Origin: Acidocella aquatica | GTDB taxonomy: Bacteria > Pseudomonadota > Alphaproteobacteria > Acetobacterales > Acetobacteraceae | DNA: 64,000 bases | Assembly (NCBI RefSeq): GCF_030160635.1 | Contig: NZ_BSOS01000094.1 | Location: 62,001-126,000 of the forward strand | Reading direction: 5' to 3' | In this document: positions 3 to 15,935 of the stretch, piece after piece | Numbering within the stretch: the first letter of the stretch is position 1 | How the letters are laid out: each line of letters begins with the position of its first letter | Translations under genes and position numbers: made by a program | The notes under the pieces: model-generated | What the model was told of the DNA's origin: nothing | Database searches by the model: none | What the model saw: the letters and a program-made list of their open reading frames with translations, nothing else

Positions 3-683
3 GGCATCGGCACCACCCTGTTCAGCCAGTTCACCCAGGGTTTTGGCAACACCCAGCCAACCATCGAGGACGCGCTCTCCCTGGTCCTGGCCTCCCTGTC
101 GCTGCTCGGCCTGGGCATTTTTGGCCCCGGCATCGCCACGGGCTTGCTCTCTGGCGCGCCACAGCTTGGCGCAGGGGCTGCCATTGGCACCGCACTCGCT
201 GCCGGTGGCATTGGCGCCGCGGGTTTGATCGGTTCGGCTGGTGCCCTTCGCGCTGGTGCTGGTGCGCTTGTCGCAGGCACACGGGGTGGCGCGGCTCTCG
301 CAGGCGGCACATCGACCGCCTATCGCCTGGGCGCCGCAGCCTCCGGCGAAGGCGGCATAAAAGGCGCTGCCGCGGGCATGGCCGGTGTCGCCAAGGCAGG
401 TGCCGCCGTGCCACGCGCCATGGCGGCCCGCGTCGCCGACAACTTGAAGCAAAGCTTTGCCGCCGGTGGCCGTGCCGCATTCCAGGCAACCGGCGGTGCA
501 CAGCCAAATGCATCGGCCGAGGCCACACCCACCGGTGCCGCCGCAGGCGGTCCACCCGGCTGGGCCCGGCAGATGCGCCGCCGCCAGGCCGTCAGCCACG
601 GCGTCTCCACCGCCACCCATGTCATGCGCTCTGGCGACCATGGCGGCGGCTCCACCAATGTTGATCTTTCGGGAGAGAAATAA
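3..683 (+). CDS. trbL: TrbL/VirB6-like conjugal transfer protein, C-terminal part
   Basis: The reading frame is open from the window edge, so the N-terminal part is missing. The visible 226 residues start with a glycine-rich membrane stretch followed by a hydrophobic segment, then a long Ala/Gly-rich region and a polar tail. This is the usual layout of TrbL, the polytopic inner-membrane channel component of the P-type mating-pair-formation apparatus. The position immediately before trbF and the one-base stop/start overlap (TAATG) with it support the call. The low-complexity tail alone would not identify the family; order in the operon does most of the work. Confidence 0.8.
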   Translation, partial: GIGTTLFSQFTQGFGNTQPTIEDALSLVLASLSLLGLGIFGPGIATGLLSGAPQLGAGAAIGTALAAGGIGAAGLIGSAGALRAGAGALVAGTRGGAALAGGTSTAYRLGAAASGEGGIKGAAAGMAGVAKAGAAVPRAMAARVADNLKQSFAAGGRAAFQATGGAQPNASAEATPTGAAAGGPPGWARQMRRRQAVSHGVSTATHVMRSGDHGGGSTNVDLSGEK

Positions 684-1366
684 TGCAGTTCCGCCGCGCC
701 GGCACGCGCTATGGCCGCACCCCCGAGCCCGAAACCCCCTACCAGAAAGCCGCCCAGGTGTGGGACGAGCGCATCGGCTCCGCCCGCGTCCAGGCCCGCA
801 ACTGGCGCCTTATCGCCTTTGGAAATTTGCTCCTTGCCATGGGCTTGGCCGGTGGCCTCGTCTGGCAATCCGCGCGCGGCAGCGTCGTCCCTTGGGTGGT
901 GCAAATCGACAGTCTCGGCCAGGCCCAAGCCATCGCCCCCGCCATCGCCGATTACCGCCCGACCGACCCGCAAATTGCCTGGCAACTCGCCCAGTTTATC
1001 GAGGACGTGCGCTCGATCCCCGACGATCCCGTCATCGTGCGCCAAAATTGGCTCCGCGCCTACGACTTCACCACCAGCCAGGGCGCGATGGCACTGAACG
1101 ACTATGCCCGCAACAATGATCCCTTCGCCGACATCGGCAAGGCGCAAGTCGCCGTCGACGTCTCCAGCGTCATCCGCGCCTCTGACAACAGTTTCCAGGT
1201 CTCCTGGGTCGAACGCCACTACCAGGACGACAGCCTGGTCTCGACGGAACACTGGACCGCCATCCTCACCATCGTCCTGTCCCCACCCACCGACGCCGAT
1301 CGCCTGCAGAAAAACCCCCTCGGCGTCTACGTCGACGCCATCAACTGGTCGAAGGAGCTCGACTGA
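683..1366 (+). CDS. trbF: TrbF, VirB8-family conjugal transfer protein
   Basis: A 227-residue protein with a cytoplasmic N-terminus, one membrane helix at about residues 42-61, and a periplasmic domain, the layout of VirB8/TrbF scaffold proteins of type IV secretion systems. Recognisable TrbF traits are the N-terminal TPYQKAAQVWDERIGSA stretch and the PWVVQID motif just after the helix. VirB8 proteins link the inner-membrane channel to the outer-membrane core complex. The start overlaps the trbL stop by one base, and its own stop overlaps the trbG start by one base, so the three are translated as one coupled unit. Confidence 0.93.
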   Translation: MQFRRAGTRYGRTPEPETPYQKAAQVWDERIGSARVQARNWRLIAFGNLLLAMGLAGGLVWQSARGSVVPWVVQIDSLGQAQAIAPAIADYRPTDPQIAWQLAQFIEDVRSIPDDPVIVRQNWLRAYDFTTSQGAMALNDYARNNDPFADIGKAQVAVDVSSVIRASDNSFQVSWVERHYQDDSLVSTEHWTAILTIVLSPPTDADRLQKNPLGVYVDAINWSKELD

Positions 1367-2358
1367 TGAAAATTTCCGTCTCCCCGCTGGCCCTATCCGC
1401 CGCGCTCGTGCTCGCGGGTTGCGCGACCTACAAACCGCCCAGAATCAGCTACGACACCGCCCCCCAACCGGCAGTGTTGCTCCCGGCACCACCCGCGCCG
1501 GTCGACATCGTGCAAATCCCGACACCGCTCCCGCTCCCTGACCAGCTAAAGCCGCTCCCGGCAGGCCCAACCGCACCGGCAGCGTCGTCTAACCCCACGG
1601 CGCAAGTGGCCGCGGCGAACGCCGCCGCCCGCATCCAGCCAACCAGCGATGGTTATATCAACGCCATCCAGGTCTACCCCTTCACAGATGGCGCGCTCTA
1701 CGAGGTCTACGCCGCCCCCGAGGAAATTACCGACATCGCCCTGCAACCCGGCGAGCAACTCGTCGGCTCCGGCCCCGTCGCCGCCGGCGACACTGTCCGC
1801 TGGATCATTGGCGACACGACAAGCGGCACAGGCCCAACAACGCAGGTCCACATCCTGGTCAAACCGACACGCCCCGATCTGGTGACCAACCTCATCATCA
1901 ACACCGACCGCCGCACCTACCACCTGGAACTGCGCTCCACGACAGTGACCTATATGGCCTCGATCTCGTGGAACTATCCAGAAGACGAGCTGATCGCCCT
2001 GCAGCAGCAGAACAACGCCGCCGACGCGGCCACACCCACCGCGACCGGTATCGATATTTCCGCACTGAATTTCCGCTACCAGATCGAGGGTGACAACCCA
2101 CCCTGGCGCCCCTTGCGCGCCTTCGATGACGGCCACCAGGTTTTTATCCAATTCCCAAATGGCATCGGGCAGGGGGACATGCCGCCGCTCTTTGTCATTG
2201 GCCCCAGCGGCAAGACGTCCGACCTAGTCAACTACCGGGTGCGCGGCCCCGACATGATCGTCGACACCTTATTTGCCGCCGCTGAACTGCAAATGGGCGA
2301 CGGCAATTCTGAGCAGCGTGTCCGCATCGTCCGCACCGACGGGACACCGTCACAATGA
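1366..2358 (+). CDS. trbG: TrbG, VirB9-family outer-membrane core lipoprotein
   Basis: A 330-residue protein. The N-terminus is a lipoprotein signal with lipobox LAGC (Cys19), so the mature form should be attached to a membrane lipid. A proline-rich linker (about residues 25-70) precedes the VirB9/CagX-type beta-rich domain that runs to the C-terminus. TrbG forms the outer-membrane core complex of the conjugation channel together with TrbI (VirB10). It overlaps trbF by one base and trbI by four bases. Length and order match the trb clusters of Tn4371-like and related integrative elements. Confidence 0.92.
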   Translation: MKISVSPLALSAALVLAGCATYKPPRISYDTAPQPAVLLPAPPAPVDIVQIPTPLPLPDQLKPLPAGPTAPAASSNPTAQVAAANAAARIQPTSDGYINAIQVYPFTDGALYEVYAAPEEITDIALQPGEQLVGSGPVAAGDTVRWIIGDTTSGTGPTTQVHILVKPTRPDLVTNLIINTDRRTYHLELRSTTVTYMASISWNYPEDELIALQQQNNAADAATPTATGIDISALNFRYQIEGDNPPWRPLRAFDDGHQVFIQFPNGIGQGDMPPLFVIGPSGKTSDLVNYRVRGPDMIVDTLFAAAELQMGDGNSEQRVRIVRTDGTPSQ

Positions 2359-3533
2359 CCGGCCAAGACCCCGGAAACGGCGAAACCCGACCGCTTGCCG
2401 CCGAACTCCGGCTGCGGCCAAATCGGCCGAGCGTCACGCGACTCTCGCGCCGGGTGCTGATCGGTCTCGGCACCGTCGCCAGCCTCTCCATCTTCGGCCT
2501 GACCTACTGGGCGCTGCAAACACGCGGCGTAAAACCTGAAAACCAGGAACTCTACAACACGCGGAACCAGAACATCGCCGACGGCGTTACCAGCCTGCCG
2601 AGCAGTTACAACGACCTGCCAAAACCCACGCCGCCACTCGGGCCGCCACTGCCCGGCGATCTTGGCCCACCAATCCTCCATGCCGAGCAGCAGGGCCGCG
2701 TCTCGACGGGCAATGACCAAGCAGACCAGCAACTGGCCCAGGAGCAGAACTCCGCCCGCACCAGCAGCCTGTTCGTTCAAACGGCCACGCCAACGGCCAC
2801 CTCCGGAACTGGACAGGTCGCGAGTCCCGATCAAGAGCCAGGTTATACCGGCGCCCCTTCGCCAACCGATCCAACGGCTACCCAAAACATGCAGGACCAA
2901 AAGCTGGCCTTCCTGAACGGCCCCTCCGACGCGCCCACCGTCAGCCCAGACCGGCTGACCAACGCGGCGTCGCCCTACATCGTCCAGGCCGGATCGGTGA
3001 TCCCCGCCGCTCTCATCACCGGCATCCGCTCAGACCTGCCCGGCCAAGTCACCGCCCAGGTAACGGAAAATGTCTATGACAGCCCAACCGGTCAATATCT
3101 TCTCATCCCCCAAGGCTCAAAGCTGATCGGGGAATACAACAGCGAGGTCGCCTTCGCGCAAAGCCGTGTCCAACTGGTTTGGACCCGGCTGATCCTTCCG
3201 AATGGCCGCTCCATTGTTCTGGAGAACCAGCCCGGAGCCGACACCCAAGGCTATTCCGGGCTTCAGGATGGGGTGGACAACCACTGGGGTTCATTATTTG
3301 AAGCCGCCCTGCTCTCCACATTCCTGAGCGTCGGCGCCGAGGCAGGAACCGGCAACCAGGAGAACAGCCTCGTCCAGGCCATCCGCAGTGGTGCGTCCGA
3401 CAGCATCAACCAAACCGGCCAGGAACTCGTCGAACGCGAGCTTAACATCCAGCCGACGCTCACCATCCGGCCGGGGTTTCCGGTTCGGGTGATCGTTAAT
3501 CGTGACCTAGTCCTCGCGCCATATCAGGGTTAA
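2355..3533 (+). CDS. trbI: TrbI, VirB10-family conjugal transfer protein
   Basis: A 392-residue VirB10-type protein that spans the envelope. Residues 1-33 are cytoplasmic, residues 34-54 form the single inner-membrane helix, and a Pro/Gly/Gln-rich linker leads to the C-terminal TrbI domain (about 190-385) with the conserved region around YLLIPQGSKLIGEYNS. VirB10 senses ATP use at the inner membrane and gates the outer-membrane pore. The start overlaps trbG by four bases (ATGA-type coupling). This is normally the second-to-last gene of the trb operon in related elements, which fits the small gene that follows. Confidence 0.94.
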   Translation: MTGQDPGNGETRPLAAELRLRPNRPSVTRLSRRVLIGLGTVASLSIFGLTYWALQTRGVKPENQELYNTRNQNIADGVTSLPSSYNDLPKPTPPLGPPLPGDLGPPILHAEQQGRVSTGNDQADQQLAQEQNSARTSSLFVQTATPTATSGTGQVASPDQEPGYTGAPSPTDPTATQNMQDQKLAFLNGPSDAPTVSPDRLTNAASPYIVQAGSVIPAALITGIRSDLPGQVTAQVTENVYDSPTGQYLLIPQGSKLIGEYNSEVAFAQSRVQLVWTRLILPNGRSIVLENQPGADTQGYSGLQDGVDNHWGSLFEAALLSTFLSVGAEAGTGNQENSLVQAIRSGASDSINQTGQELVERELNIQPTLTIRPGFPVRVIVNRDLVLAPYQG

Positions 3534-3544
3534 AGGAGATGGGC

Positions 3545-3826
3545 ATGGTAAAGTTAAAGCTTGGCATGATTCCAGACGACAAGCCCGTGAAACTCACCGT
3601 AGAAATCCCAGCCGCAGTTCATCGCGATCTTCTTGCCTATGCTGAGGTGCTCGGACGAGAGACGGGACATCCGGTCACCGACCCAGCACGACTGGTCGCG
3701 CCCATGCTGATCCGGTTTATGGCAACCGATCGAGCTTTCGCCAAAATACGACGGGTGGCACAACCTCAACCAACCGACGACCGACCGACACGGTTCGGCA
3801 CATCGCAACAAGTCAAAGATCCTTGA
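3545..3826 (+). CDS. DUF2274 protein, last gene of the trb operon
   Basis: A 93-residue soluble protein of the DUF2274 family, which is found almost always directly behind trbI in conjugative elements; its biochemical role is not known. The N-terminal KLKLGMIPDDKPVKLTVEIP stretch and the PARLVAPMLIRFMATDRAF stretch are typical. An ATG six bases upstream (3539) is in the same frame, but the AAAGGAG ribosome site at 3532-3538 has a spacing of six bases to the ATG at 3545, so I prefer 3545. It lies 11 bases behind trbI, hence in the same operon, and it ends the plus-strand part of the island. Confidence 0.88.
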   Translation: MVKLKLGMIPDDKPVKLTVEIPAAVHRDLLAYAEVLGRETGHPVTDPARLVAPMLIRFMATDRAFAKIRRVAQPQPTDDRPTRFGTSQQVKDP

Positions 3827-3851
3827 AGTGACCGCACCCGCCCAGTAAAAA

Positions 3852-6512
3852 TCACGAATACTTGCGAGCTAGCCCCTCTAACGTCATATTTTCAGCAATT
3901 GCATCATGCGGGATCAGTACGTAGCTCCACGGCTTTCCGCCATAACTTGCGGCATGTTCCGTAGCGTGACGGCACCATTCGACCGCGACGGCCTTCTTAG
4001 CCACCACATCCGGATCGGTCATATTGTTTGATGCCTTAGGCTCCAACATAAAAATGTGTCCTTCGGTCTCAGCCACGAAATCCGGCTGATATTCGAGCTG
4101 CTCAACACCTGAGCGGTAAAATAGCTTGAACTGTCCCTTCACCGGCTTGAACCATTTCAGCGATTCCCGTTCCAAAATCACCGCCATTTTGCGTTCGCCG
4201 TCGGCCTGGAACTTTTGCTCACGGTATAGGCAACGCTTGAACCCAGCAAATACATACCGCGCCATGTTGCTCTTGTCGGGTGGCGAGATTCGGTAATCAA
4301 GCGGCGCATCTCCGGCACTGGCACTATAGGCGCTAGGCAGGAGTTCGGTGAAACCACGCGTTACCACCACTTCATATTCAGCCCGTTGGTCTTGCCAAAA
4401 ATGTTCTTGCATTTGTGCATGAACAAAACTGGCAATCTCTTTCTTATGCAGTCGCAGCACGTTGCGTGCATCATCCTCCGACAGATAGCCCAGAAAATGG
4501 CGCGTCACTTGCCCCGCGAGATCATAGAGTAATTCGGCATTTTCATCGTATGACACATCGTCGAAATCGATTAGGCTACCAACTACGTAATCCTCCAACC
4601 TTTGCTCTTCGATATTACCCGTCCCCGTGCCAATGCGATCGATCTGATCCGTACGCAAATGTTGGGCCAATAAGGTATCGTCCGGCGCCTCGTACCTCAT
4701 CCTTGACAGATCGAGTTTGAAGGGGCGGAAGCCCGACTTCACCTCGCCCTTGGGAACCACCAGGATGCGCGGAATATCAATCGTCTGTTGCACCACCAAT
4801 TCGCTAGTTTTAGCGATGATCGCGGCAAAATTCGGTTGGGTGATGATGCCCCCCAACTCCATCTGCACCGGGCGATAACTCTTCTCCACCTCAGCCAGCA
4901 ACGCCGCCTGCACCTCCGGCCGCAGTAAATGCCCTGCACTGGGAATCAGCAACGGTTGTGCCTCTAGTTTGCGGATCGCCGCATAGGCGATCTGCGCAAC
5001 CCTTTCATCGTCGCCCCCAAACGCCGCCTGATTTTCATGAAACCCACCATAGCTTGGGGCTGCTGGTGCCAAACCAAGCTGCACAGCCAGTTGCGGGGCA
5101 GATACCACCGTCACCGTCTTTTGCCCGATCGGATCATCGGACAGGATCAGCTGTTGCAACCGGATAGTCGAGTCGGGCCGCCTTGCTTCGTCAACGATCT
5201 CTTGAAAGCGATCATGTGCCACGATGTTCAGCCGGTCGACCGCCATCACCCCGGTGCGTTTGCCATACGGCAGCCGCAAGCCGCGTCCGATCGATTGTTC
5301 GATCAAGGTCCTGGCATTCGCCGCGCGCAGCGGCACGATGGTATAAAGATTGGTTACATCCCAACCTTCCTTCAGCATGTTCACATGGATAACGATCTCA
5401 GTTGGCTCGTCGGTATGTTCTACCTTCAAAAGCCGCTCAATGGTTTCCTCTTCCTTCACGGATGAATCAACCTGGATTACCTTGTCCTTATACCGCCCCT
5501 CAAAAAAGCCATCCGACTGGATCAATCGCATCAATTCAGCTGCGTGGGTGGTGTCGCGCGCAATCACCAGAATAAACGGTTTCACAATCCGCTGGCCGGT
5601 CTGGCGGGCATATGTTTCAAGCTCCACCTTCACGCTTTCGTGCAGCCGCACGCCATCTTCCAACTTAATCTGCTGGATCGATTCCGGCGATTTTCCCACC
5701 GGACTAAAATTCTCACGTGTAACCACGGCCGGCTCTTTCACAAAGCCGTCTTCCATCGCCCGGGCCAGAGGGTAATCAAAGATCACGTTTTGAAATGCCA
5801 CAGGACCGCGCGTAGTCTCGACAAACGGCGTCGCGGTTAACTCCAACCCAATCACCGGCTTTAATTCATTGATCGCGCGAATGCCCGCCGATGCCCGGTA
5901 GCGGTGCGATTCATCCATGATCAGTACCAGGTCTTTCAGCCCTGCCAGATAATCGAAATAGCTCTCGCCAATTTCCTCACGAAAACTGCGGATACGCGGC
6001 GAACGTCCACCCCGCACCTCGGAATTGATCTTGGAAATGTTAAAAATATTGATCGTCGTGGGGAACAAGCTGCCACCGCTGGCAATTTGCCGTTCATAAT
6101 TCTCGCCCGTCGTAATCACCGGCGGGCTGATCGCAAATTCAGCGATGCCTTTCAGCACATATTTAGGCGTGTTCTGGGTAAAGTCGGCAATCAGCTTGTT
6201 ATAGATCGTCAGGTTTGGCGCCAGCACAAAGAAATTATTCAGCCCATGCGCCAGATGCAAATAGGCAATAAACGCGCCCATCAACCGCGTCTTGCCCACA
6301 CCAGTCGCCAATGCAAAACACAGCGAGGGAAAATCGCGTTCAAAATCCTTCACGGTGGGGAATTCGCTGTTGATTGCAGCCAGTGCCGCCTCCAAATCTA
6401 CCCCCTTTTGCGGTGGCACGATCTCAGTGATGCGGTCGAGGATTTCCAGCGAACGGCGTTGCGGCGCGCGTAAACTTAACCGCCCAGCGATGGCATTGAC
6501 GTGGCGGTTCAT
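3852..6512 (-). CDS. res: Type III-like restriction subunit: DEAD/DEAH helicase with C-terminal nuclease
   Basis: An 886-residue superfamily 2 helicase fused to a nuclease. Walker A ATGVGKT lies at residues 69-75, DESH at 200-203, LTATP near 225-229, and the QSIGRGLRLP motif VI follows in the second RecA domain. Near the C-terminus PD at 810-811 and E-P-K at 824-826 form a PD-(D/E)xK-type nuclease site, as in type III Res proteins. It is somewhat shorter than the roughly 950-1000 residues usual for that family. The start overlaps the RhuM gene by four bases. It is last in the six-gene operon and would cleave DNA not modified by the methylase encoded two genes upstream. Confidence 0.85.
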   Translation of the reverse strand: MNRHVNAIAGRLSLRAPQRRSLEILDRITEIVPPQKGVDLEAALAAINSEFPTVKDFERDFPSLCFALATGVGKTRLMGAFIAYLHLAHGLNNFFVLAPNLTIYNKLIADFTQNTPKYVLKGIAEFAISPPVITTGENYERQIASGGSLFPTTINIFNISKINSEVRGGRSPRIRSFREEIGESYFDYLAGLKDLVLIMDESHRYRASAGIRAINELKPVIGLELTATPFVETTRGPVAFQNVIFDYPLARAMEDGFVKEPAVVTRENFSPVGKSPESIQQIKLEDGVRLHESVKVELETYARQTGQRIVKPFILVIARDTTHAAELMRLIQSDGFFEGRYKDKVIQVDSSVKEEETIERLLKVEHTDEPTEIVIHVNMLKEGWDVTNLYTIVPLRAANARTLIEQSIGRGLRLPYGKRTGVMAVDRLNIVAHDRFQEIVDEARRPDSTIRLQQLILSDDPIGQKTVTVVSAPQLAVQLGLAPAAPSYGGFHENQAAFGGDDERVAQIAYAAIRKLEAQPLLIPSAGHLLRPEVQAALLAEVEKSYRPVQMELGGIITQPNFAAIIAKTSELVVQQTIDIPRILVVPKGEVKSGFRPFKLDLSRMRYEAPDDTLLAQHLRTDQIDRIGTGTGNIEEQRLEDYVVGSLIDFDDVSYDENAELLYDLAGQVTRHFLGYLSEDDARNVLRLHKKEIASFVHAQMQEHFWQDQRAEYEVVVTRGFTELLPSAYSASAGDAPLDYRISPPDKSNMARYVFAGFKRCLYREQKFQADGERKMAVILERESLKWFKPVKGQFKLFYRSGVEQLEYQPDFVAETEGHIFMLEPKASNNMTDPDVVAKKAVAVEWCRHATEHAASYGGKPWSYVLIPHDAIAENMTLEGLARKYS

Positions 6513-7492
6513 CGCTTATTATCCTTCTTCACAGTCGCCGCAATTTTTTGCAGTTCTTCCAGTTCATCGCCCGCTGCCGCAGCGCTTCTGCGGTTGGCAT
6601 CGAACAAATCATATTTCTGATGGGCAATCGCCTCGGCCCGAGCCGCCGAGACACTTCCTGCACTCCGCAGCACCGGCAACTCGTTGTTTTTCAGAAACGC
6701 GTCCAGAATGGTCTCCCATTCGGCCAACGCAATCTCCTGGCGGCGTTTGCTCCGCAGTTCGGCGGTATCCAGGAACATCGTCACGATCAGGTTCAGTTCC
6801 TTCACCTCCGCCTCGCCGAGGTAATTTTTGGCCGTTGTCACATCCCCCTTGCGCACCCGCCCGGCCTTCCAGGTGGTCAGCCCCATATTGGGGGCGTTTT
6901 CATTGGCACGGGCCGCGATCAGCTCCGCCGCCGTGTGGTGCGTAACGGCATAGAGCATCTTGTTTTGAATGCTCGCGTAAAACAGCGGAGCGGCATCGGA
7001 TTTGGCGTTGTAATCCACACTGAGCGCCAAAATATCGCGGATTTTCTGGTAAAACCGCACCTCCGAGGCCCGAATGTCCCGGATGCGCTCCAAAAGCTCG
7101 TCGAAATAGTCAAATTTCGGGTCTTTCAGGCGCTTGTCGTCTATGACAAAGCCTTTCAGCAGATATTCTTTCAGCACCGTAGTGGCCCAGCGCCGGAATT
7201 GGGTGCCACGTTCGGATCGCACCCGGTAACCCACGGCCAGCACCACCTCCAGGCTATAAAGCCTGACGGGCTTGTCCGAATGAGCAATGTGCATAATTTG
7301 CACATTGCTCACCTCATCCAACTCGCCGCTCGTAAACAAATTGCCGATATGCTTGGTAATCACCGACCGTTCACGGTCAAACAAGGCCGCCATCTGCTCT
7401 TGGGTCAGCCAAGCGGTGCCCCCGATAGACCGCAGTTGGATGTCGATCTTGCCATCCTCGGTGGTATAAAGGATCAGCTCGCCCTCGCTCAT
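6509..7492 (-). CDS. RhuM-family protein
   Basis: A 327-residue protein of the RhuM (virulence RhuM) family. The N-terminal part contains a helix-turn-helix-like stretch, TQEQMAALFDRERSVITKH (about residues 30-48), and the stretch GYRVRSERGTQFRRWATTVL, both hallmarks of the family. No catalytic motif is obvious. RhuM proteins were first noted in a Salmonella pathogenicity island, but most copies in bacteria lie beside restriction or toxin genes, and the molecular role is unsettled. It overlaps the methylase gene and the res gene by four bases each, so it must be made together with them. This suggests a regulatory or structural role in the complex, or a separate effector. Confidence 0.85.
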   Translation of the reverse strand: MSEGELILYTTEDGKIDIQLRSIGGTAWLTQEQMAALFDRERSVITKHIGNLFTSGELDEVSNVQIMHIAHSDKPVRLYSLEVVLAVGYRVRSERGTQFRRWATTVLKEYLLKGFVIDDKRLKDPKFDYFDELLERIRDIRASEVRFYQKIRDILALSVDYNAKSDAAPLFYASIQNKMLYAVTHHTAAELIAARANENAPNMGLTTWKAGRVRKGDVTTAKNYLGEAEVKELNLIVTMFLDTAELRSKRRQEIALAEWETILDAFLKNNELPVLRSAGSVSAARAEAIAHQKYDLFDANRRSAAAAGDELEELQKIAATVKKDNKR

Positions 7493-9183
7493 TTGCGCCC
7501 CCGTTTACCGGGGCTGGGCGAGGCGCCGAATAAATCGCTGGGGTCGGGCGCCAGCGGGGGCGGGGCTTCCTCTACCGGCGGACGCACGGGCCTGGGCGGT
7601 GCTTTGGGCAGGTTCTCCACATTCAGGCTGTAATCATCATGCCCCCACTCACAGCGGTTCTTGATGTGGTTGGGGATCTTCTTCACGGTCAAGTTCTCAA
7701 ACCTGTCCGTCCGCCCGCGAAAGGCGGAGCATAGCACCAGCAGCGAGCGATCGGCTCCCACCTCCTCACTCAAATGCGCCAGTTGCTCCAGCGAGAGCGT
7801 TTGGGTGGTGACATAGATAAAATCACGCTCCGTCGAGGCGCCATGTTGCCAATAGAGCGTATCGCTGGGCGCATAAACAAACCCCTCCAGCTTGCACAAA
7901 GCCTCGGCCAGCATGGCCGCATTATACGCCTTGCTGATGACCTCGCGTCCATAGCGGTCTGTCTCCAGCAGCGAAGGTGCAAGGCGGAAGTAGCGGAATC
8001 CGCCGCCACCTTCCCAGCCCATTGCTTCGGTGATGCCGCCTTTGTCGTCGCCATCGATCACTTTGCGCAGGCGAGGGATGATATGGGTATGGCAATGCTC
8101 ACCCAACTCGATCATGATCCAGCGTCGGCCCATCTTGTGGGCGACAGCGCCAGTGGTGCCCGAACCAGCGAAGGAATCGAGGACGAGATCGCCGTGGGCC
8201 GTGGCAATTTCCAGGATCCGCTTTATCAGGCGCTCGGGCTTCGGTGTGGAGAAAGGAGTCTCTGGAAACAACTTATCAATTTCAAGTTTTGATTCTTGAT
8301 TATGACCAGTTTCATCAAACCCCCAAATACTCCGTGGCACTATTTTTTTGGTCTCGGTAAGAAACTTCTTGATTCGGGGCATGGTTCCAGTTCCACCCTT
8401 CCCCCAGTAAAGAAGATTGTTTTCCACATTTTTCTGGTGCGTGTTAATATCATATGCCCACACCCGCGTTTTACTCGGCAAAATTTCTTTTCGAGTAAAC
8501 GGATTCGTAATGGGATAATACAAATTCGGTCTCTCATCGGACGACTTAGCGCAGGTGTACGCAGCAGAGTTCCAATCTCCGCGAGGATCATTGTCGGGGT
8601 TTTTGTAATATTCAAGTTGTGATTCAGAACGATTTAAGCGATTTGGCCGCCAGTTTTCTTTGTTAACCGCATAGACTAGAACGTGATCGAAATCCGCACT
8701 GAAATATTTTGCATCATTCGCGGGCGAAACTCGTTTGTGCCACGCAAGATTGGCAACAAAATTTCGACGCCCAAATACCTCGTCGCAAAGCACTTTCAAA
8801 TAATGTGCTTCATTATCGTCGATCGTGATCCACAGCGAACCATCATCCGCTAATAGCCGTCGAATAATCTCCAGCCGATCTCGCATTAATGACAGCCAGA
8901 TAGAATGCTCCACCCCATCATCATAATGCTCAAACGCACTGCCAGTGTTGTAGGGCGGGTCGATGAACACACATTTCACCTTCCCCGCGAACTCCTGCTC
9001 CAATGCCTTCAATGCCAGCAAATTATCGCCAAAGATCAGCCGGTTATCAAAGAGATCATTGTCACCCACCATATGCCGCGCATGATAGGACAGCGCCGCA
9101 TCCTCCAACAAAATCCGCGGCTCCAACTGCGGCCGGTTTTCCTTACCCACCCACGTGAGTTCTAGTTTTTGCTTTTTAGCCAT
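7489..9183 (-). CDS. mod: Site-specific DNA methyltransferase, type III Mod-like (beta class)
   Basis: A 564-residue amino-methyltransferase. Motif IV DPPY at residues 75-78 comes before motif I FAGSGTTG at 338-345, the order of beta-class enzymes such as type III Mod, which methylate adenine N6 or cytosine N4. The segment between the motifs should hold the target recognition domain; it is richer in A and T than the rest (181 of 420 bases G or C at 8281-8700, against 37 of 60 at 7861-7920, hand counts). The C-terminal part ends in a Pro-rich and basic tail. It lies seven bases behind the ATPase gene and overlaps the RhuM gene by four bases. Confidence 0.9.
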   Translation of the reverse strand: MAKKQKLELTWVGKENRPQLEPRILLEDAALSYHARHMVGDNDLFDNRLIFGDNLLALKALEQEFAGKVKCVFIDPPYNTGSAFEHYDDGVEHSIWLSLMRDRLEIIRRLLADDGSLWITIDDNEAHYLKVLCDEVFGRRNFVANLAWHKRVSPANDAKYFSADFDHVLVYAVNKENWRPNRLNRSESQLEYYKNPDNDPRGDWNSAAYTCAKSSDERPNLYYPITNPFTRKEILPSKTRVWAYDINTHQKNVENNLLYWGKGGTGTMPRIKKFLTETKKIVPRSIWGFDETGHNQESKLEIDKLFPETPFSTPKPERLIKRILEIATAHGDLVLDSFAGSGTTGAVAHKMGRRWIMIELGEHCHTHIIPRLRKVIDGDDKGGITEAMGWEGGGGFRYFRLAPSLLETDRYGREVISKAYNAAMLAEALCKLEGFVYAPSDTLYWQHGASTERDFIYVTTQTLSLEQLAHLSEEVGADRSLLVLCSAFRGRTDRFENLTVKKIPNHIKNRCEWGHDDYSLNVENLPKAPPRPVRPPVEEAPPPLAPDPSDLFGASPSPGKRGRK

Positions 9184-9190
9184 AAGTCAA

Positions 9191-11509
9191 TCAACCTGGT
9201 TTCTTGAGAGGATGGAGGCGCCGTGTATCACCGCTATTCCTCCAGTAACTGCCTGATTTGTCGTTGCTCGGCCATCCATGAACCGGACAGGTTAGGGCAT
9301 CGATTAACGCGACAACTTGGCTTGAAAAGCCGATGGCATCAGAGTCGAGCATTTCAAATGAAATCGACTTGAAATGCGCGCCAAACGCATTTCGCGCCTG
9401 AAATATTCGTTGCAACTCGTCGAGACAAGCTTTTAATTCGACTGTGACCGCTGTTGGTTGGTTTCCATTCTCCGGCTTGTCTCTGATCTCAACTTTCAGA
9501 GCTTCACGCAACTTCTTGTCTATCGCCTGGAGGAAATCACCGATTGTATAAGTGGAATTTGTCCGCCGGGGCAGACTGCATTCATATTTCTGGGTTAAAT
9601 AATCGAGCGCTGCCTCAAGAATAACACCCGCCTTGCTGCATATCGCTTGTGGGTCAACCGGGTTAGCGCTCAGCAAAGTTTTCAACCGATCAATTTCAGG
9701 AATTGAATTTACAGAACGTATACCATTGCCGATCGTCCAGCCATGCAATTCAATAAATTGGCAGGGTTGGTCGGGCTTGAGCCAGCCCCACCGATATTTC
9801 TCGCGCCATGGTCGGTAATGCGTTGTCACAATCGTATGACGAAATTTTTCGCTGACGCCATAAATCATTTGAATCACTCGCTCAACATGCGGCTCATCTA
9901 CGCTGCCCAGAACATCATCAAGGATTAGAATGGTTTCCTTCGCTCGATCACGTAGCGCGAGCGCCAGGAAGACACAAAGCCCCAACGTATCCAAATGCGA
10001 CTGGCTATAATAGGCTTGTGGAGGCGCCTCTTGTCCTGAAAATTTTGCCTTGAGCTCTAACGATGCTCTCTTATCAGGGTCAAGGGGCAACGCAATTTTA
10101 TCTAAACCCTCACCAGGGTGAACATCCTCATAAAGTTTGCCAACTTGCTCTGCGATTTCCTTGATAATTCCGTCCGTGAAAGCCTGACGCTCAGCAACAC
10201 AGATTTTTAACGCCTCTTCAATCTGCGGAACCAGCGCCCCTAGCTCGATTCTCCTTCCATGATTGTTCTCATAGCCGTCTAATGCAGATGCGAGGGCGGT
10301 AATAAACTGCTTTTCTCCTCGCCACGAATTTTCCCTCACCGCCCATGAATCTGCGGCGGGCACAGCGGACAAAAGCCATGCCGGCAGGTCTTTCAAGTCT
10401 CCGGGAGGCGAGTTATCGGGTAGATGCACGTCGCCGGACCATTGATGCCCTGCCTTTGCTGCCTCGTATGCCTTTGTGCCTTGGCTATAATCGACGCCAA
10501 TCTGCAGTCGAATCGCTTCAGTTTTACTTAGCGCATCTTTCTGCTTCTTCCATTCCGTATTAGCGGCCTGTAGGGCGCTAAATTGGCCTAGGCGCTCTTT
10601 GATTGCTTCTTCCAAACCAGATACATTTTCAGTGCTTTGGCATAGTGGACATTCTGAAATCAATGTATGTGCATGCAGATATGCTTGCCCAGCTTCAAGC
10701 AACTCCAATAAATCATTCGCCCCGTCGCTTGCCTGAGCGGCCGCTTCCGTGCGGGCTTTTTCAGCTTTCGTGACGGCTAATTTTACGACTTCAAGAGCCT
10801 CTTGGTTGACGCTAGTCCTTTCTGAAAAATCCTTTAGCGCTTGAAATGCCAACCGCAATTTCCCTATCGCAGCGATATCAGAAGTTAGACTTGTTGCTGG
10901 AGCTGCCAACTTACTTTTGGCCCATGAGACGGGATTTTTACCAGCAGGATTTTCGGCTGCATCATAATACTCTTGCAGAGAGACTAGATTTTGGTCTTCA
11001 ATAAGTTGAGCGTTATCTCTCTCGACAGCGATACGTTTTCCAAGTTGACGAAGCGCTTCCTCGGATGTCTCGAAAGGCGCGATATCGATAAACCGTTTTA
11101 TCTCTTCATATCTCTTCGCGGGCGCAGCTTCGATCAATGCCAGTATTTGTTGACGCCGGAGAAGTTCAATACGCGGCTTGGCACTATGTGGCGCAACAGA
11201 ATATTTTTTGCCAACAAGGCTACCGCTACAATCTCCATTGGACGACTTTAGAACTACCAATAAGTCCGAACCAGTCTTGCCAGCAGTATGCCAAAATTTT
11301 GTAAGTGCCGATCCCATGCCACGGTCTTCGAGCGAACCAACCTTCTCCTTCGCGAGGAATTCAAATGCATCGCAAATTGTAGTTTTTCCCGTACCATTTT
11401 CTCCGTAGATCAGCGTAAATTTTCGATCCTTTTCAAAACCAATCGTAAAATTTGATGATGAGCCACGGAATGCAGATAAAGACAATGATTTAAGAGAGTT
11501 TGAACTCAT
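9191..11509 (-). CDS. SMC/RecF-like AAA ATPase with CxxC hook
   Basis: A 772-residue ATPase. The Walker A motif GENGTGKTT is at residues 36-44, a CPLC pair (Cys287, Cys290) sits between two charged helical stretches, and an ABC-signature-like SHLDTLG stretch (about 504-510) precedes Walker B ILILDD at 527-532. This is the split ATP-binding head with a coiled-coil and zinc hook seen in Rad50/SbcC and RecF-like defence ATPases. Residues from about 560 form an extra C-terminal domain I do not recognise. It overlaps the 65-residue gene by four bases and is followed by mod after seven bases. The expected role is ATP-driven DNA or complex sensing. The locus has low G+C compared with the core chromosome. 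Confidence 0.85.
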   Translation of the reverse strand: MSSNSLKSLSLSAFRGSSSNFTIGFEKDRKFTLIYGENGTGKTTICDAFEFLAKEKVGSLEDRGMGSALTKFWHTAGKTGSDLLVVLKSSNGDCSGSLVGKKYSVAPHSAKPRIELLRRQQILALIEAAPAKRYEEIKRFIDIAPFETSEEALRQLGKRIAVERDNAQLIEDQNLVSLQEYYDAAENPAGKNPVSWAKSKLAAPATSLTSDIAAIGKLRLAFQALKDFSERTSVNQEALEVVKLAVTKAEKARTEAAAQASDGANDLLELLEAGQAYLHAHTLISECPLCQSTENVSGLEEAIKERLGQFSALQAANTEWKKQKDALSKTEAIRLQIGVDYSQGTKAYEAAKAGHQWSGDVHLPDNSPPGDLKDLPAWLLSAVPAADSWAVRENSWRGEKQFITALASALDGYENNHGRRIELGALVPQIEEALKICVAERQAFTDGIIKEIAEQVGKLYEDVHPGEGLDKIALPLDPDKRASLELKAKFSGQEAPPQAYYSQSHLDTLGLCVFLALALRDRAKETILILDDVLGSVDEPHVERVIQMIYGVSEKFRHTIVTTHYRPWREKYRWGWLKPDQPCQFIELHGWTIGNGIRSVNSIPEIDRLKTLLSANPVDPQAICSKAGVILEAALDYLTQKYECSLPRRTNSTYTIGDFLQAIDKKLREALKVEIRDKPENGNQPTAVTVELKACLDELQRIFQARNAFGAHFKSISFEMLDSDAIGFSSQVVALIDALTCPVHGWPSNDKSGSYWRNSGDTRRLHPLKKPG

Positions 11510-11703
11510 GGCTGTTCGCTCTTCGCAATGGCAAGCTCAATATCCAGTTTCCAATCCTCGCCCTTCATTGTGCCAGCAGCAATTTTTGTGACGAGTTGTT
11601 CCCGTTTATCCGCACGGAGCAACTTCTTTTCGATTAGTCGGTCCACCAAAATTTTTGCCAATTGTGAAGACGGTGTTTCCAACTCTGTCATACCAGCACC
11701 CAT
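11506..11703 (-). CDS. Small protein of the defence operon, unknown function
   Basis: A 65-residue acidic/basic helical protein with no recognised family. It overlaps the helicase gene upstream by 16 bases (four bases if the internal ATG at 11691 is used, giving 61 residues) and the ATPase gene downstream by four bases. This double coupling, and its presence between two clearly functional genes, argues that it is real. The composition (regular spacing of Leu, Ile, Lys and Glu) suggests two or three amphipathic helices. It could be an adaptor between helicase and ATPase; that is only an inference. Confidence 0.7.
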   Translation of the reverse strand: MGAGMTELETPSSQLAKILVDRLIEKKLLRADKREQLVTKIAAGTMKGEDWKLDIELAIAKSEQP

Positions 11704-14549
11704 CGTAAAGTGAACAACGACTCAGTTTTAATATTTTGACGTAGTTTGCCTTCAATTTGGGCGATCAACGTGCCGCGCTGACGGTCGATCTCGTCCTGTG
11801 CTTCAAATAAATTACGGCGCTTGGTGGTACGTAAATGCTCCAGAGATTTAATCTGCTTCTGCCCCGCCAGCTTGTCTTCCAGACCAAGGGCCGCCAATGC
11901 TGCCCGGCGGGCTTCTTTGATCTGGCGGTCTATCTCCTTGATCTCGCGTTCCAACCCGAGTTTCAGATCATCGGCCCAGCATTCCAACTTGTCAGCCTCG
12001 GCCTCAAAAAATTTTACATTACGGTCGGCGTTAGCTTGGCGGATACGGCCAGCCTGGTCATCCCAATGCGTCTCCAAACTCGTCAACGGGCCCTCCGGCA
12101 ACATGTCCATCTCGCCCATTGTAGCAGCTAACCCCAACAAACGCTTAGCGGCATCTGGGCTGATCGCGGTGCCGTTGTCAGCTTCCCCCGCCAAAATGAT
12201 ATGATCTTCAGGCGCATCCAGCGCTTCAATGGTAAATAGCCGTGCGATGAGCCAACCGCTCTGGCCGCGCAGAGGTTCCAGCGCACTGATCTTGCCGCTG
12301 TGGCTACTGAAATCAAACCGCACTTCGTGAGCGGCTGATCCATGCGCTTTGGCCCGTGCCACGACCGCTTCGCCCAATGGGTGATTGATACGGTATAAAT
12401 GCGCTTCGCCTGACCGGCGTGGCAATTCGTACAAGCCCAGCGGCACAGCCCGGGCGTCCGCCCAGGGCGGGCATTCGCGTAACGCGAAGGCGCCGGTTGC
12501 CGGAAAATCGGCATAGGGTGCCAATTCATGCCGGGTAAGGCGCAGTAACTGTTCCTCAAATCGTCCCAGATAATCTTTTGCCTCACTGTTGCGGGATTTC
12601 AGCTTCTCTCGCACCTCATCATCAAAATTCTCCAGTAATTTCTGCCTCGTTTGGCTCATGGCCTGGTTGATTTCCAGACTCATATCCCGCTGCAACTGGT
12701 CGAAGGCGGCCTTGATCTCGTCAGTCTGCCGGCATTGCTGGTAAATGCCAGAAATGCGTTTTTCAAAATCGACGCCGGATTCAATCACGCCAAGAACCTC
12801 GTCGCTGGCGCCAAACACACCTTCAAATAATTTAAATTTTTCAGACAGCAATTCATAGACGCGCTGATCGGCCTCGTTCTTGCGATTGATGAAATTCACC
12901 ACCACCACGTCGTGCTTTTGGCCGTAGCGATGGCAGCGGCCAATGCGCTGTTCAATGCGTTGCGGGTTCCATGGCAGGTCGTAATTCACAACCAGCGAAC
13001 AAAATTGCAGGTTGATCCCCTCCGCACCCGCCTCAGTAGCGATCATGATGCGGCCCTGGTCTCGGAAATAATCCACCAGGGCGGATCGCATATCGGCGGT
13101 ACGCGAACCGGTAATGCGGTCGGTGTCTTTGTGATGCGCATACCAAGCGTTGTAAATTTTCTTCGAGGCTTCGTCGGTGTTGGTGCCGTTGAACAGCACG
13201 ATGCCGTCGCTGTAGGGACTTACGCTAAGCAGTCGCAGCAAATAGGCTTGGGTACGGCGGGATTCTGTGAAGATGATGGCTTTCTGCGCAGCGCCCAACT
13301 CATCGGCTTTGGCAAAGGCCACCTTCAATGCTTTTAACAGCGCTTTTCCTTTGGCATTCTCTTCAATCGAAGTGGCAAGCTTGGCAAAACCATCCAAATC
13401 GGCAATTTCGGCGGCAATGGCGCGGCGGTCGGCTTCGGTCAAAGGCTCCGGTGCGTCCTCGTCCCATTCGTCGGCGGTCTCGTCCAGTGCCTCGTAATCT
13501 TCGCCCAGATCGAGTTCACTAAATTTATCGTCGTCGGCCAGCTTGCCGCGTAGACGTTGGGCAATGGAATTAAGCGCGCCTGCGATGGCGAAGCTGGACG
13601 AGGCCAGCAGCTTGCGCAGAACCAGGGTCATCAGCGAGCGTTGGCCAGAGGGCAAGGCTTGCAAGTTTTCGCGACGTAGATAATCGGAGACAAGCTGATA
13701 TAGCCGGTCTTCGCTCTCCTCGGGGGTAAATTCTTCCACGATCGGGAAGCGTTTGGTGTAGGGCACATAGGTGGTCACTTGCCGTCGCAAGGTACGGTGG
13801 CAGATAGGTTTCAGCCTATCGCGTAACTGGCTGAATACCCGGTCGGGGGCAGCCGCCATGAACTGCTCACGGAAGCTCTTCAGATCACCGAAACTGTATT
13901 CATCAATAAAACTGACCAGACCATAAAGCTCAAGCAGTGAGTTTTGCAAAGGCGTCGCAGTGAGGAGCAGCTTTTGCTTGCCTGACAACGCGCCTTTCAA
14001 TGTGTTAGCGATGACATTGGAAGGTTTATAGACGTTACGCAGCCTGTGGGCTTCGTCGATCACTACCAAATCCCAAGGGGTTGCCGCAACGTCGGCGGCT
14101 TTGCTGCAGGCGAATTGGTAGGAACAGATGACGACGGTGTTGTCCTGGGTAAACGGGCGGAAATTGCCCGCCTTTATGGCCTGATTGTAGGATTTCGCCT
14201 CGATAATGGCGCAACGCAGGAAAAACTTCTCGGTCAGCTCCTGATGCCATTGCTTACGCAAGTTTGATGGTGCGATGACCAAAATTGCCCGTTTGCGCTC
14301 GGCCCAGCGTTGCGAGATGACCAGTCCGGCCTCGATCGTCTTGCCGAGGCCCACTTCATCCGCCAGCAAGGCTCCTTTGGAGAAGGGGGAGGCAAAGGCG
14401 AACAAGGCTGCATCGACCTGATGAGGGTTGAGGTCCACTTGCGCTCCCGCGACAGCGCTGGCCATGCGCTCGCCATCATCCGGCGCTTGGCGGCGAGTGA
14501 GGTCGTAGGCAAAGTATTTGGCCTGGAAGTCGGTGATCATGCCAGGCAT
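11688..14549 (-). CDS. SNF2-family helicase-like ATPase, first gene of the defence operon
   Basis: A 953-residue SNF2/RapA-type translocase. Walker A DEVGLGKT is at residues 64-71, DEAH at 165-168, and the C-terminal RecA domain has the arginine-finger motif QRIGRCHRYGQ. Such proteins move along duplex DNA without strand separation and are present in several antiviral systems (DISARM is one). The C-terminal 250 residues are helical and charged, probably coiled-coil. ATGs at 14549 and 14540 are both possible starts; neither has a clear ribosome site. The gene is first in the minus-strand operon and its stop overlaps the small gene that follows. Confidence 0.9.
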   Translation of the reverse strand: MPGMITDFQAKYFAYDLTRRQAPDDGERMASAVAGAQVDLNPHQVDAALFAFASPFSKGALLADEVGLGKTIEAGLVISQRWAERKRAILVIAPSNLRKQWHQELTEKFFLRCAIIEAKSYNQAIKAGNFRPFTQDNTVVICSYQFACSKAADVAATPWDLVVIDEAHRLRNVYKPSNVIANTLKGALSGKQKLLLTATPLQNSLLELYGLVSFIDEYSFGDLKSFREQFMAAAPDRVFSQLRDRLKPICHRTLRRQVTTYVPYTKRFPIVEEFTPEESEDRLYQLVSDYLRRENLQALPSGQRSLMTLVLRKLLASSSFAIAGALNSIAQRLRGKLADDDKFSELDLGEDYEALDETADEWDEDAPEPLTEADRRAIAAEIADLDGFAKLATSIEENAKGKALLKALKVAFAKADELGAAQKAIIFTESRRTQAYLLRLLSVSPYSDGIVLFNGTNTDEASKKIYNAWYAHHKDTDRITGSRTADMRSALVDYFRDQGRIMIATEAGAEGINLQFCSLVVNYDLPWNPQRIEQRIGRCHRYGQKHDVVVVNFINRKNEADQRVYELLSEKFKLFEGVFGASDEVLGVIESGVDFEKRISGIYQQCRQTDEIKAAFDQLQRDMSLEINQAMSQTRQKLLENFDDEVREKLKSRNSEAKDYLGRFEEQLLRLTRHELAPYADFPATGAFALRECPPWADARAVPLGLYELPRRSGEAHLYRINHPLGEAVVARAKAHGSAAHEVRFDFSSHSGKISALEPLRGQSGWLIARLFTIEALDAPEDHIILAGEADNGTAISPDAAKRLLGLAATMGEMDMLPEGPLTSLETHWDDQAGRIRQANADRNVKFFEAEADKLECWADDLKLGLEREIKEIDRQIKEARRAALAALGLEDKLAGQKQIKSLEHLRTTKRRNLFEAQDEIDRQRGTLIAQIEGKLRQNIKTESLFTLRWVLV

Positions 14550-15131
14550 AGGGCGGCGCGAATGGCAACTATAGCGTCCGTCAACAGGTTACCCTCGCGT
14601 ATAAGTGGAATGAAGCCATCCTTAGGTATCACCACGAATCGGCAATCGTGAAGGGATTTTTAGGAAACGCGGTAGCGAGGTTCGTGGACATTGGGGGGCG
14701 CACCCAGCCCCCGAATTTGATTAGACTATCCGGGGCTATAAAGGCGCCGAAAACGGTCAGCATCTAGTGTAACGTCACCCAAACCGCTCGAAGTCCGTCT
14801 CAGCCAGTCTCACCCGAACAGTTTTCTTGGCTTAACTTACTGAAGTGAATGCTGAAGATAAGCCGGACTGAATCGGGGGACAACCCATTACGACCAAAAT
14901 CGATCTGACCATGCGGCCTGAACAGTGAGTGCAAAAGCGGTCAATATGCGCCGAGTCGACCGGTTCCAAGGCCTCCCCAAGCCGCCAATCCTAAATCAAA
15001 CGCTCATTGCTATAGAGCCGACTGGATTCAGCTCCTTGAGTGCGCTTGCTTCCGTAGTGCTTCCGTGGCTAAAAACCACTCCGGTGTCGGAATGGATTAA
15101 CTTAACAACACATTGATTTTACTAAGAAAAT
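14550..15131. other. Gene-poor stretch between defence operon and tRNA-Arg
   Basis: About 580 bases without a credible gene. Open frames here are short, lack ribosome sites and resemble nothing I know. The promoter of the minus-strand operon should lie near 14550-14700, but I could not pick convincing -35/-10 boxes. A hairpin with six G:C pairs (arms 14694-14699 and 14707-14712) is present without a T tract. The last bases before 15132 should contain the element/chromosome junction, because the tRNA 3' end is the presumed attachment site. No integrase remnant is visible. Confidence 0.5.
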
Positions 15132-15208
15132 TGGCGGACCCGACGCGATTCGAACGCGTGACCTTTGCCTTCGGAGGGCAACGCTCTATCCAGCTGAGCT
15201 ACGGGTCC
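15132..15208 (-). tRNA. tRNA-Arg (anticodon CCG)
   Basis: The minus strand folds as a 77-base tRNA with an encoded CCA end. The acceptor arms are GGACCCG and CGGGTCC with G as discriminator base. The D arm contains GCTC..GAGC, the T arm contains GTTCGAATC, and the anticodon loop CTCCGAA on the stem TTGCC/GGCAA gives anticodon CCG, which reads the Arg codon CGG. The gene stands alone. Its 3' end faces the conjugative island, so it is the likely integration target. Confidence 0.96.
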
Positions 15209-15263
15209 GTACCGCGGCGCTTCTATCTGAAAACCCGGCACCCGGCAACGGCAATGGGATATT

Positions 15264-15935
15264 TCAGCTTTTACAATCTAATGCCATCATCTCCCGCGCC
15301 AAACGGATCAGCGGCAGATGGTCCGGCACCGCGAACTGGCTGGCCCGCAGGCTCATGATCTCCGCCACCTGCACGGCCTTCGCATCGTCACCCGGCTGCA
15401 ACGGCAGTTCGCGTAAATCCCCCGGCAGCCTGAAGCAGAACCCCTGCGTGGAGACGCCGAAAACGTCGCCCTGCCGTATGCTGGTGCCGGGCAGGTTGTT
15501 CCACGCCACGCGAATGTCGAACGGACGGTCATACAAGCGGCGCCCGACCGGCCCCGCCGTCCCCTCCCGCAGCAGCCTTTCGTCCACGCCGGTCTCCTCC
15601 ACCGCCTCGCGGATCGCCGCGTCCAGTGGGTTTTCCACCCCGCCGTCCACCTCATCAATAAACCCGCCCGGCAGCGCCAGCAGCCCGGCGCCGGGATGAT
15701 GCAGCCGCGTGATCAGCACCACCTGGCCATATTCATCGAGCAAAATGGCATCCGCCGCATGGCGCAGATGCAGCGCCACATCACCTGTGCCAGGCAGGCT
15801 CACGCGGCCCAGATCATGCACCGCATGGCTGGGAATATCCCCAAAACACCCCGCGATAAAGCGATCGGTGATTTGGCGCTGCAATGCTGCATCGACAATC
15901 ATATGGTCTTTAACGGCTTCCACAGGCCCCTCCAC
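15264..15935 (-). CDS. Nudix hydrolase
   Basis: Up to 223 residues. A Nudix box is clear: GGFIDEVDGG followed by REAVEETGV, with a short insertion in the first part compared with the canonical spacing. The glutamates of REAVEETG bind the divalent metal that cleaves a nucleoside diphosphate linked to another group. The substrate cannot be told from sequence; the N-terminal HAVHDLGRVSLPGTGDVALH segment suggests a larger Nudix subfamily. The longest frame starts with GTG at 15935, only a few bases behind the typA terminator; an ATG at 15902 would give 212 residues and may be the true start. Confidence 0.8.
   Translation of the reverse strand: MEGPVEAVKDHMIVDAALQRQITDRFIAGCFGDIPSHAVHDLGRVSLPGTGDVALHLRHAADAILLDEYGQVVLITRLHHPGAGLLALPGGFIDEVDGGVENPLDAAIREAVEETGVDERLLREGTAGPVGRRLYDRPFDIRVAWNNLPGTSIRQGDVFGVSTQGFCFRLPGDLRELPLQPGDDAKAVQVAEIMSLRASQFAVPDHLPLIRLAREMMALDCKS

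Follow-up and report, generated by a model that had tools for sequence, protein, structure and literature searches.

Some type III restriction–modification (R-M) systems, the Eco86II and BspHIV group, carry an extra helicase-like gene 5′ of mod, which occurs in more than 500 genomes; methylation proceeds without it, its peptides were undetected in an active enzyme preparation, and its role is unexplained in the excerpt of the account consulted (PMC8259958). According to excerpts of the relevant papers, PrrC cuts RNA when EcoprrI is inhibited and RloC does so after DNA breaks (PMC12707154, PMC2610378), defense genes are embedded within Hma loci (HEC; PMC12111858) and within BREX and BREX-related loci (PMC12839542), and Lamassu includes a small protein, LmuC, and a zinc hook in many LmuB proteins (PMC10586767). 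Here we describe a six-gene operon in a 64,000-nucleotide stretch of the Acidocella aquatica genome (NZ_BSOS01000094.1, positions 62,001 to 126,000), referred to as the window. From 5′ to 3′, its genes encode an SNF2-family protein (gene 1), a small protein (gene 2), a Rad50-like ABC ATPase (gene 3), a type III Mod methyltransferase (gene 4), a RhuM-family protein (gene 5) and a type III Res (gene 6). The six genes are a three-gene chassis, consisting of the DrmD-like SNF2 and Mod/Res, with two inserts, and not one six-gene system. The inserts occupy the SNF2–Mod gap (slot A) and the Mod–Res gap (slot B).

Results

Relatives of the locus (designated L and a number) were collected by one genome scan with an SNF2 alignment, from which the best 80 of 567 relatives were taken, and 12 hand-picked plasmid loci were added. 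Frequencies from this 92-locus set are not population estimates. Fifty-seven loci were complete, with the gene order SNF2-Mod-Res and all three genes on the same strand; the other 35 were excluded because of contig ends, Mod or Res out of reach, or a different order (L022). Counting a gap of more than 300 nt as occupied, since the gene caller misses genes lying under longer opposite-strand open reading frames (ORFs), slot A was filled in 33 of the 57 complete loci, slot B in 14, both in 11 and neither in 21. A gene 3 relative was present in 4 of the 57, and three of the 80 scan loci (L078, L088, L104) had RhuM in slot B. The preliminary description of this DNA had treated the six genes as one coherent system. 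This did not hold in the loci collected: none of the 92 had a gene 3 relative together with RhuM, as sought with single-sequence profiles that distant relatives may escape, and no second six-gene locus was found.

The slots hold diverse genes. Thirty proteins were scanned against Pfam, 26 of them encoded in slots and the other four in L143 and L100. Those from the slots matched AIPR, Schlafen AlbA_2, AAA_21, DUF4276, Abi_2, Abi_C, SIR2_2, HerA, Fic, BRO-N, PLD-like, protein kinase, GmrSD/HNH, YhcG, ParA-like AAA, SMC/AAA_15 and DUF2130, with AAA_21 and DUF4276 occurring as a paired insert; 4 of the 26 had no Pfam match (L024, L042 twice, L145). PADLOC matches were found for six of the nine non-gene-3 inserts scanned (AbiU, HEC-01, AbiD, PDC-S13, SoFic, HEC-03), and the remaining three had none at E 1e-10.

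Inserts differ between close relatives. The nearest SNF2 relatives seen, L025 (Methylocystis, 78%) and L146 (the window's family, 77%), have AIPR in slot A where the window has genes 2 and 3, and their slot B is empty, without RhuM. Nucleotide similarity between the window and L025 follows SNF2 to within 55 nt of its stop, starts again 6 nt into mod, ends at 7595 and returns at the start of res. Within mod, both ends are alike and the middle is not, which suggests exchange of a target-recognition domain, as this middle part probably is one. A gap of a similar kind was seen in mod of the E. coli loci L105 and L107. These two loci are 98.5%, 96.8% and 98.6% identical in DNA over the helix-turn-helix (HTH) gene, SNF2 and Res, respectively, vs 65.7% over 1045 bases for the slots; each locus has an Abi-family gene, with an extra AIPR gene in L107. 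On a quick SNF2 tree of 70 rows, in which incomplete loci with named inserts were included on purpose, six changes account for the nine gene 3 loci, against a mean of 8.7 after shuffling, with one shuffle in 500 as low; for the full set of insert labels, 32 changes are needed (minimum 7, shuffled mean 40.1). The inserts are thus partly inherited and often exchanged.

The chassis itself recurs. The locus does go beyond a simple type III pair, as proposed, and the SNF2 helicase belongs with Mod/Res. Of 299 genomes sampled from the window's family, eight have gene 1 at E ≤ 1e-200, counting the window's own; at this threshold it was absent from all six same-genus genomes listed in that sample. Searches of plasmids found matches to gene 1 in 51 records, 40 of them listed, and to gene 6 in 34; in 23 of the latter, the match spans 80% or more of Res. 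Twenty of these 23 share an accession with the listed SNF2 matches, adjacency having been viewed for some only; in CP067418, some 40 kb separate the best SNF2 match from Res. Two further Res plasmids (Sphingopyxis, Ketogulonicigenium) have SNF2 near Res by annotation, and the remaining one is from Paracoccus marcusii.

In E. coli NCTC86, the SNF2 gene that precedes mod and res is of the gene 1 family, scoring 1324 bits against its profile. NCTC86 is the strain of Eco86II, and we take its SNF2-mod-res locus to be the Eco86II locus. The window shares with the Eco86II group the order helicase-mod-res and a homologous SNF2 gene 5′ of mod, but its helicase gene is split from mod by genes 2 and 3, whereas the excerpt of the published account mentions no inserts. 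The Mod/Res proteins also differ: those of NCTC86 match a long family, and those of the window a shorter one (564 and 886 aa). Of the 57 complete loci, 40 have the short family and 17 the long. In an E. coli search with L020, most of the matches listed had in common a short segment of about 298 bases, and just 2 of 168 records extended over most of the query. In L105 and L107, the HTH gene before SNF2 (11814-12014 in each) is named MAD1 (methylation-associated defense system, MADS) by RefSeq, and the locus continues with SNF2 and a type III-like R-M system. Conchiformibius L022 (2496-11844) has a different arrangement, with Mod and Res ahead of SNF2.

The slot A cassette consists of genes 2 and 3. 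Gene 3 has a zinc hook (C287-P-L-C290), whose CPxC pattern, like the P-loop, is invariant in the aligned homologs, and its C-terminus has an HEPN-like fold by prediction. The HEPN RNase motif is R-X4-6-H; R706, N707, G710 and H712 of gene 3 are invariant in 11 aligned homologs. These features suggest that gene 3 carries a C-terminal HEPN RNase domain and may be a guard like PrrC or RloC. It resembles them in combining an ABC ATPase with a predicted C-terminal RNase in a gene inside an R-M locus, and shares the zinc hook with RloC. It differs in its motif, which is R-N-x-x-G-x-H instead of the RloC Arg-X3-Glu-X36-52-His, in the small gene next to it and in the R-M system, which is type III-like. 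The RloC/PrrC triad was sought among the residues invariant in the 11 homologs (Arg 15, 118, 119, 133, 441, 544 and 706; Glu 37, 150, 467 and 632), and no R-X3-E was found.

Matches to gene 3 were present in one of the 299 genomes sampled from the window's family (E ≤ 1e-20) and in four of 385 from its class (E ≤ 1e-30), both counts including the window's own genome; 50,697 phage records contained none. Seven of the 80 scan loci had a gene 3 relative downstream of SNF2 (L033, L035, L037, L057, L097, L098, L100), placed after other inserts in L033 and L037. A gene 2 relative was detected beside it in L033, L035, L037 and L100, and not in L057, L097 or L098. The viral-collection contig L110 lacks RhuM and contains an HTH-sized ORF, SNF2, a small gene, a gene 3 relative, Mod and Res. 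Relatives of genes 2 and 3 were also found standing alone on Bacteroidota plasmids. The G+C content of gene 3 is clearly lower than that of SNF2 in the window and L033; the difference is small or absent in L035, L057, L097, L098 and L110, and reversed in L143. Genes 2 and 3 on the one hand, and gene 5 on the other, look like independent cassettes. In L143 (6994-14253), DarT and Macro-domain genes replace Mod/Res after SNF2, a small gene and the gene 3 relative. A different pair of small gene and ATPase gene, with a CPVC hook and without the HEPN motif, was seen convergent to Res in Rhizobium plasmid p7 (L152:232-2954), where the locus order is SNF2-Mod-DUF262-Res.

The identities and coordinates of the six genes in the preliminary description were recovered as six minus-strand ORFs, with matching Pfam families for all but gene 2 (Table 1). 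Type III R-M systems combine a beta-class Mod methylase with a Res that has helicase and nuclease parts; they methylate an asymmetric site and cut between inverted sites. Mod and Res stand in one locus here as well, with gene 6 matching PADLOC REase_III (653 bits) and Pfam ResIII. Gene 5 matches the PADLOC candidate PDC-S05 (451 bits), and the matches of gene 3 to Pfam SMC/AAA-type ATPase models are near or below cut-offs. The DPPY and FAGSG patterns of Mod and the PD...ExK pattern of Res were found by eye in the translations.

Table 1. Coordinates of the operon genes and associated features in the window
Feature	Position	Strand	Details
Gene 1, SNF2-family helicase/translocase, chassis	11688..14549	-	953 aa; Pfam SNF2/Helicase_C; DrmD-like residues 33-665
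Gene 2, small protein adjoining gene 3	11506..11691	-	61 aa from second ATG
Gene 2 ORF, longest form	11506-11703	-	65 aa; no match in Pfam, NCBIfam or PADLOC
Gene 3, Rad50-like ABC ATPase with C-terminal predicted HEPN domain, slot A insert	9191..11509	-	772 aa
Gene 4, type III Mod methyltransferase, chassis	7489..9183	-	564 aa; PADLOC MTase_III 714 bits; Pfam N6_N4_Mtase
Mod middle without similarity to L025	8248..8710	-	Flanking similarity confined to 9177-8711 and 8247-7595
Gene 5, RhuM-family protein, slot B insert	6509..7492	-	327 aa; Pfam Virulence_RhuM 332 bits
Gene 6, type III Res (helicase domain and C-terminal PD...ExK pattern), chassis	3852..6512	-	886 aa
VirB8, CagX (VirB9-like), TrbI (VirB10-like) and DUF2274; conjugation genes of the element adjoining the operon 3′ end	683..3826	+
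22-base repeat, possible integrase arm site	15047..15068	+	95% identical copy near integrase end, C94:387-408
Right attachment repeat, 3′ 45 bases of tRNA-Arg (ccg, gene 15132-15208)	15132..15176	-	Exact copy, same contig

The second ATG of gene 2, at 11691, forms an ATGA overlap with the gene 1 stop, and the aligned small proteins begin nearby; the start of the longest ORF, at 11703, probably lies 12 bases too far upstream. With the later start, the five junctions are probably -4, -4, +7, -4 and -4, four of them being 4-bp overlaps. The tight one-strand layout reported earlier was thus confirmed along with four of its spacings, and the first, given as -16, is probably -4. A single transcript for all six genes, proposed at the same time, is likely, as a promoter scan of 3400-15300 was no richer than shuffled sequence (10 sites vs a mean of 9.4). 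The window has no minus-strand ORF of more than 45 aa between gene 1 and the tRNA gene. G+C content is 0.47–0.56 in the six genes vs 0.62 in the window.

The operon is right-end cargo of a probable integrative and conjugative element. No attachment repeat was visible within the window alone; on the whole contig (C94), an exact 45-base repeat was found at 212-256 and 77132-77176, 76.9 kb apart. The element, of about 77 kb, lies in tRNA-Arg, with an integrase containing an arm-binding domain just inside its left end. Between the ends are a type IV secretion system coupling protein, a VirB11-like ATPase, VirB8, CagX and TrbI; no relaxase gene turned up, and no search aimed at relaxases was made. 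Nine stretches from the same genus were compared. One of them, L174, aligns from the gene at 15978-17813, which we take to be TypA, through the tRNA gene, its similarity ending at 15124, immediately beyond that gene. On this side, the remaining eight reach only about as far as the 15978-17813 gene and are uninformative on the junction. The same element contains a second defense-like cluster outside the window (C94:13789-26182; L185, L186), with a GmrSD-like protein (weak HEC-05 match), a PD-(D/E)XK protein, a WYL-type regulator and an AAA ATPase (IetA-like). A SoFic-type Fic protein is encoded at C94:1820-3019.

Several known systems were compared with the locus. As stated in the preliminary description, the six genes include no DISARM or BREX core. 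Residues 33-665 of gene 1 match DrmD_b with 702 bits, below the NCBIfam cut-off of 950, the C-terminal third being unaligned, and DrmA, DrmB and DrmC are missing from the listed matches of the other five genes. The overlap with Hma suggested there was not supported: gene 1 scores 177 bits to HmaA vs 696 to the PADLOC DrmD model, and neither HmaB nor HmaC is among the best 25 of 48 PADLOC matches of gene 3, the best 25 of 64 of gene 4 or all nine of gene 6. The placing of defense genes between core genes is nonetheless like the embedding in Hma and BREX, and relatives of HEC-01 and HEC-03 occur in the slots here, but the core is SNF2 with type III Mod/Res. The MADS gene set is mad1-mad8. Among the matches listed, only a weak mad3 similarity of gene 3 (60 bits) was seen, and gene 1 is preceded by no minus-strand ORF of more than 45 aa up to the tRNA gene, whereas L105 and L107 have the HTH gene named MAD1.

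Discussion

We propose, with a probability of about 60%, that this is a layered anti-phage locus, in which a restriction chassis has a second layer plugged into its two slots. In the first layer, Mod would mark self DNA and Mod/Res would cut unmarked DNA, assisted in some way by SNF2. In the second layer, genes 2 and 3 in slot A would stay silent until abnormal DNA or a disabled R-M complex is met; the HEPN domain of gene 3 would then cut RNA, probably tRNA, and halt the cell, acting if the first defense fails. RhuM would be the second-layer component in slot B. Gene content and order, gene overlaps, slot exchange, the CPxC hook, the conserved HEPN-type motif, the predicted HEPN-like fold and the ends of the element are computational results; the defense activity, the RNase activity with its trigger, and any link between gene 3 and R-M are inferred. 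The guard step is modeled on PrrC under EcoprrI inhibition and on RloC after DNA breaks. An earlier suggestion had the ATPase or helicase detecting foreign DNA alongside Mod/Res; sensing is plausible for a Rad50-like ATPase with its own predicted HEPN effector, less so for a helper of Mod/Res. Weighing against a tight guard, SNF2, gene 2 and gene 3 persist in L143, where the stretch viewed contains no Mod/Res.

The slots could instead be a convenient landing site, where independent defense genes gain operon expression without interacting with the chassis. The high diversity of the inserts, the solitary plasmid relatives of genes 2 and 3 and the persistence of gene 3 in L143 all fit this explanation, which we nevertheless consider rather unlikely. 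RhuM in the window overlaps both neighbors by 4 bp, and gene 2 likewise overlaps gene 1. In addition, inserts recur at the same positions, albeit in small numbers: where a Mod gene or fragment is present, gene 3 relatives lie between it and SNF2 (the window, L033, L035, L057, L097, L098 and L110), and RhuM lies between Mod and Res in the window, L078, L088 and L104.

A rather unlikely alternative for genes 2 and 3 is a compact Lamassu, with gene 3 as an LmuB-like ATPase whose effector is fused C-terminally and gene 2 as LmuC. LmuB is the best PADLOC match of gene 3 (63 bits), and the L057 relative reaches 79 bits over most of one model. The Rad50-like ATPase, zinc hook and small partner are also shared with Lamassu, as the small LmuC and the common LmuB hook appear in the excerpt consulted (PMC10586767). 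However, the scores are weak, with mad3 nearly equal (60 bits), and the gene 3 effector is a predicted fused HEPN domain. Lamassu pairs LmuB with a separate LmuA, and no LmuA gene is among the six or among the listed matches of the other five genes.

More speculatively, the DrmD-like SNF2 might act as a shared adaptor, sensing either the state of the R-M enzyme or stalled DNA and permitting whichever suicide effectors occupy slots A and B to act. It is improbable, in our estimate, that one chassis fires varied abortive effectors in this way, here a Rad50-HEPN RNase and RhuM. The tight spacing would fit one obligate six-gene machine, with SNF2 or the ATPase sensing DNA and Mod/Res executing, but such a machine is very improbable, as slot contents vary between relatives, 21 of the 57 complete loci have both slots empty and the six-gene set did not recur among the 92 loci.

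What is new here is the presence of exchangeable slots on an SNF2-type III chassis, and a Rad50-like module with a predicted HEPN tail; the chassis, and embedding in Hma and BREX, were known. Judged by titles and the beginnings of abstracts, the literature searched, with bioRxiv preprints outside its scope, contained no description of the slot arrangement on this chassis. The two recurrently refilled slots provide a testable idea on the purpose of the extra gene in helicase-bearing type III R-M systems. Their position by itself could also lead to new effectors. Together with its small neighbor, the Rad50-HEPN module, if true, would add to the RNase effectors linked to sensing of DNA ends, a pairing that to our knowledge is otherwise known from RloC.
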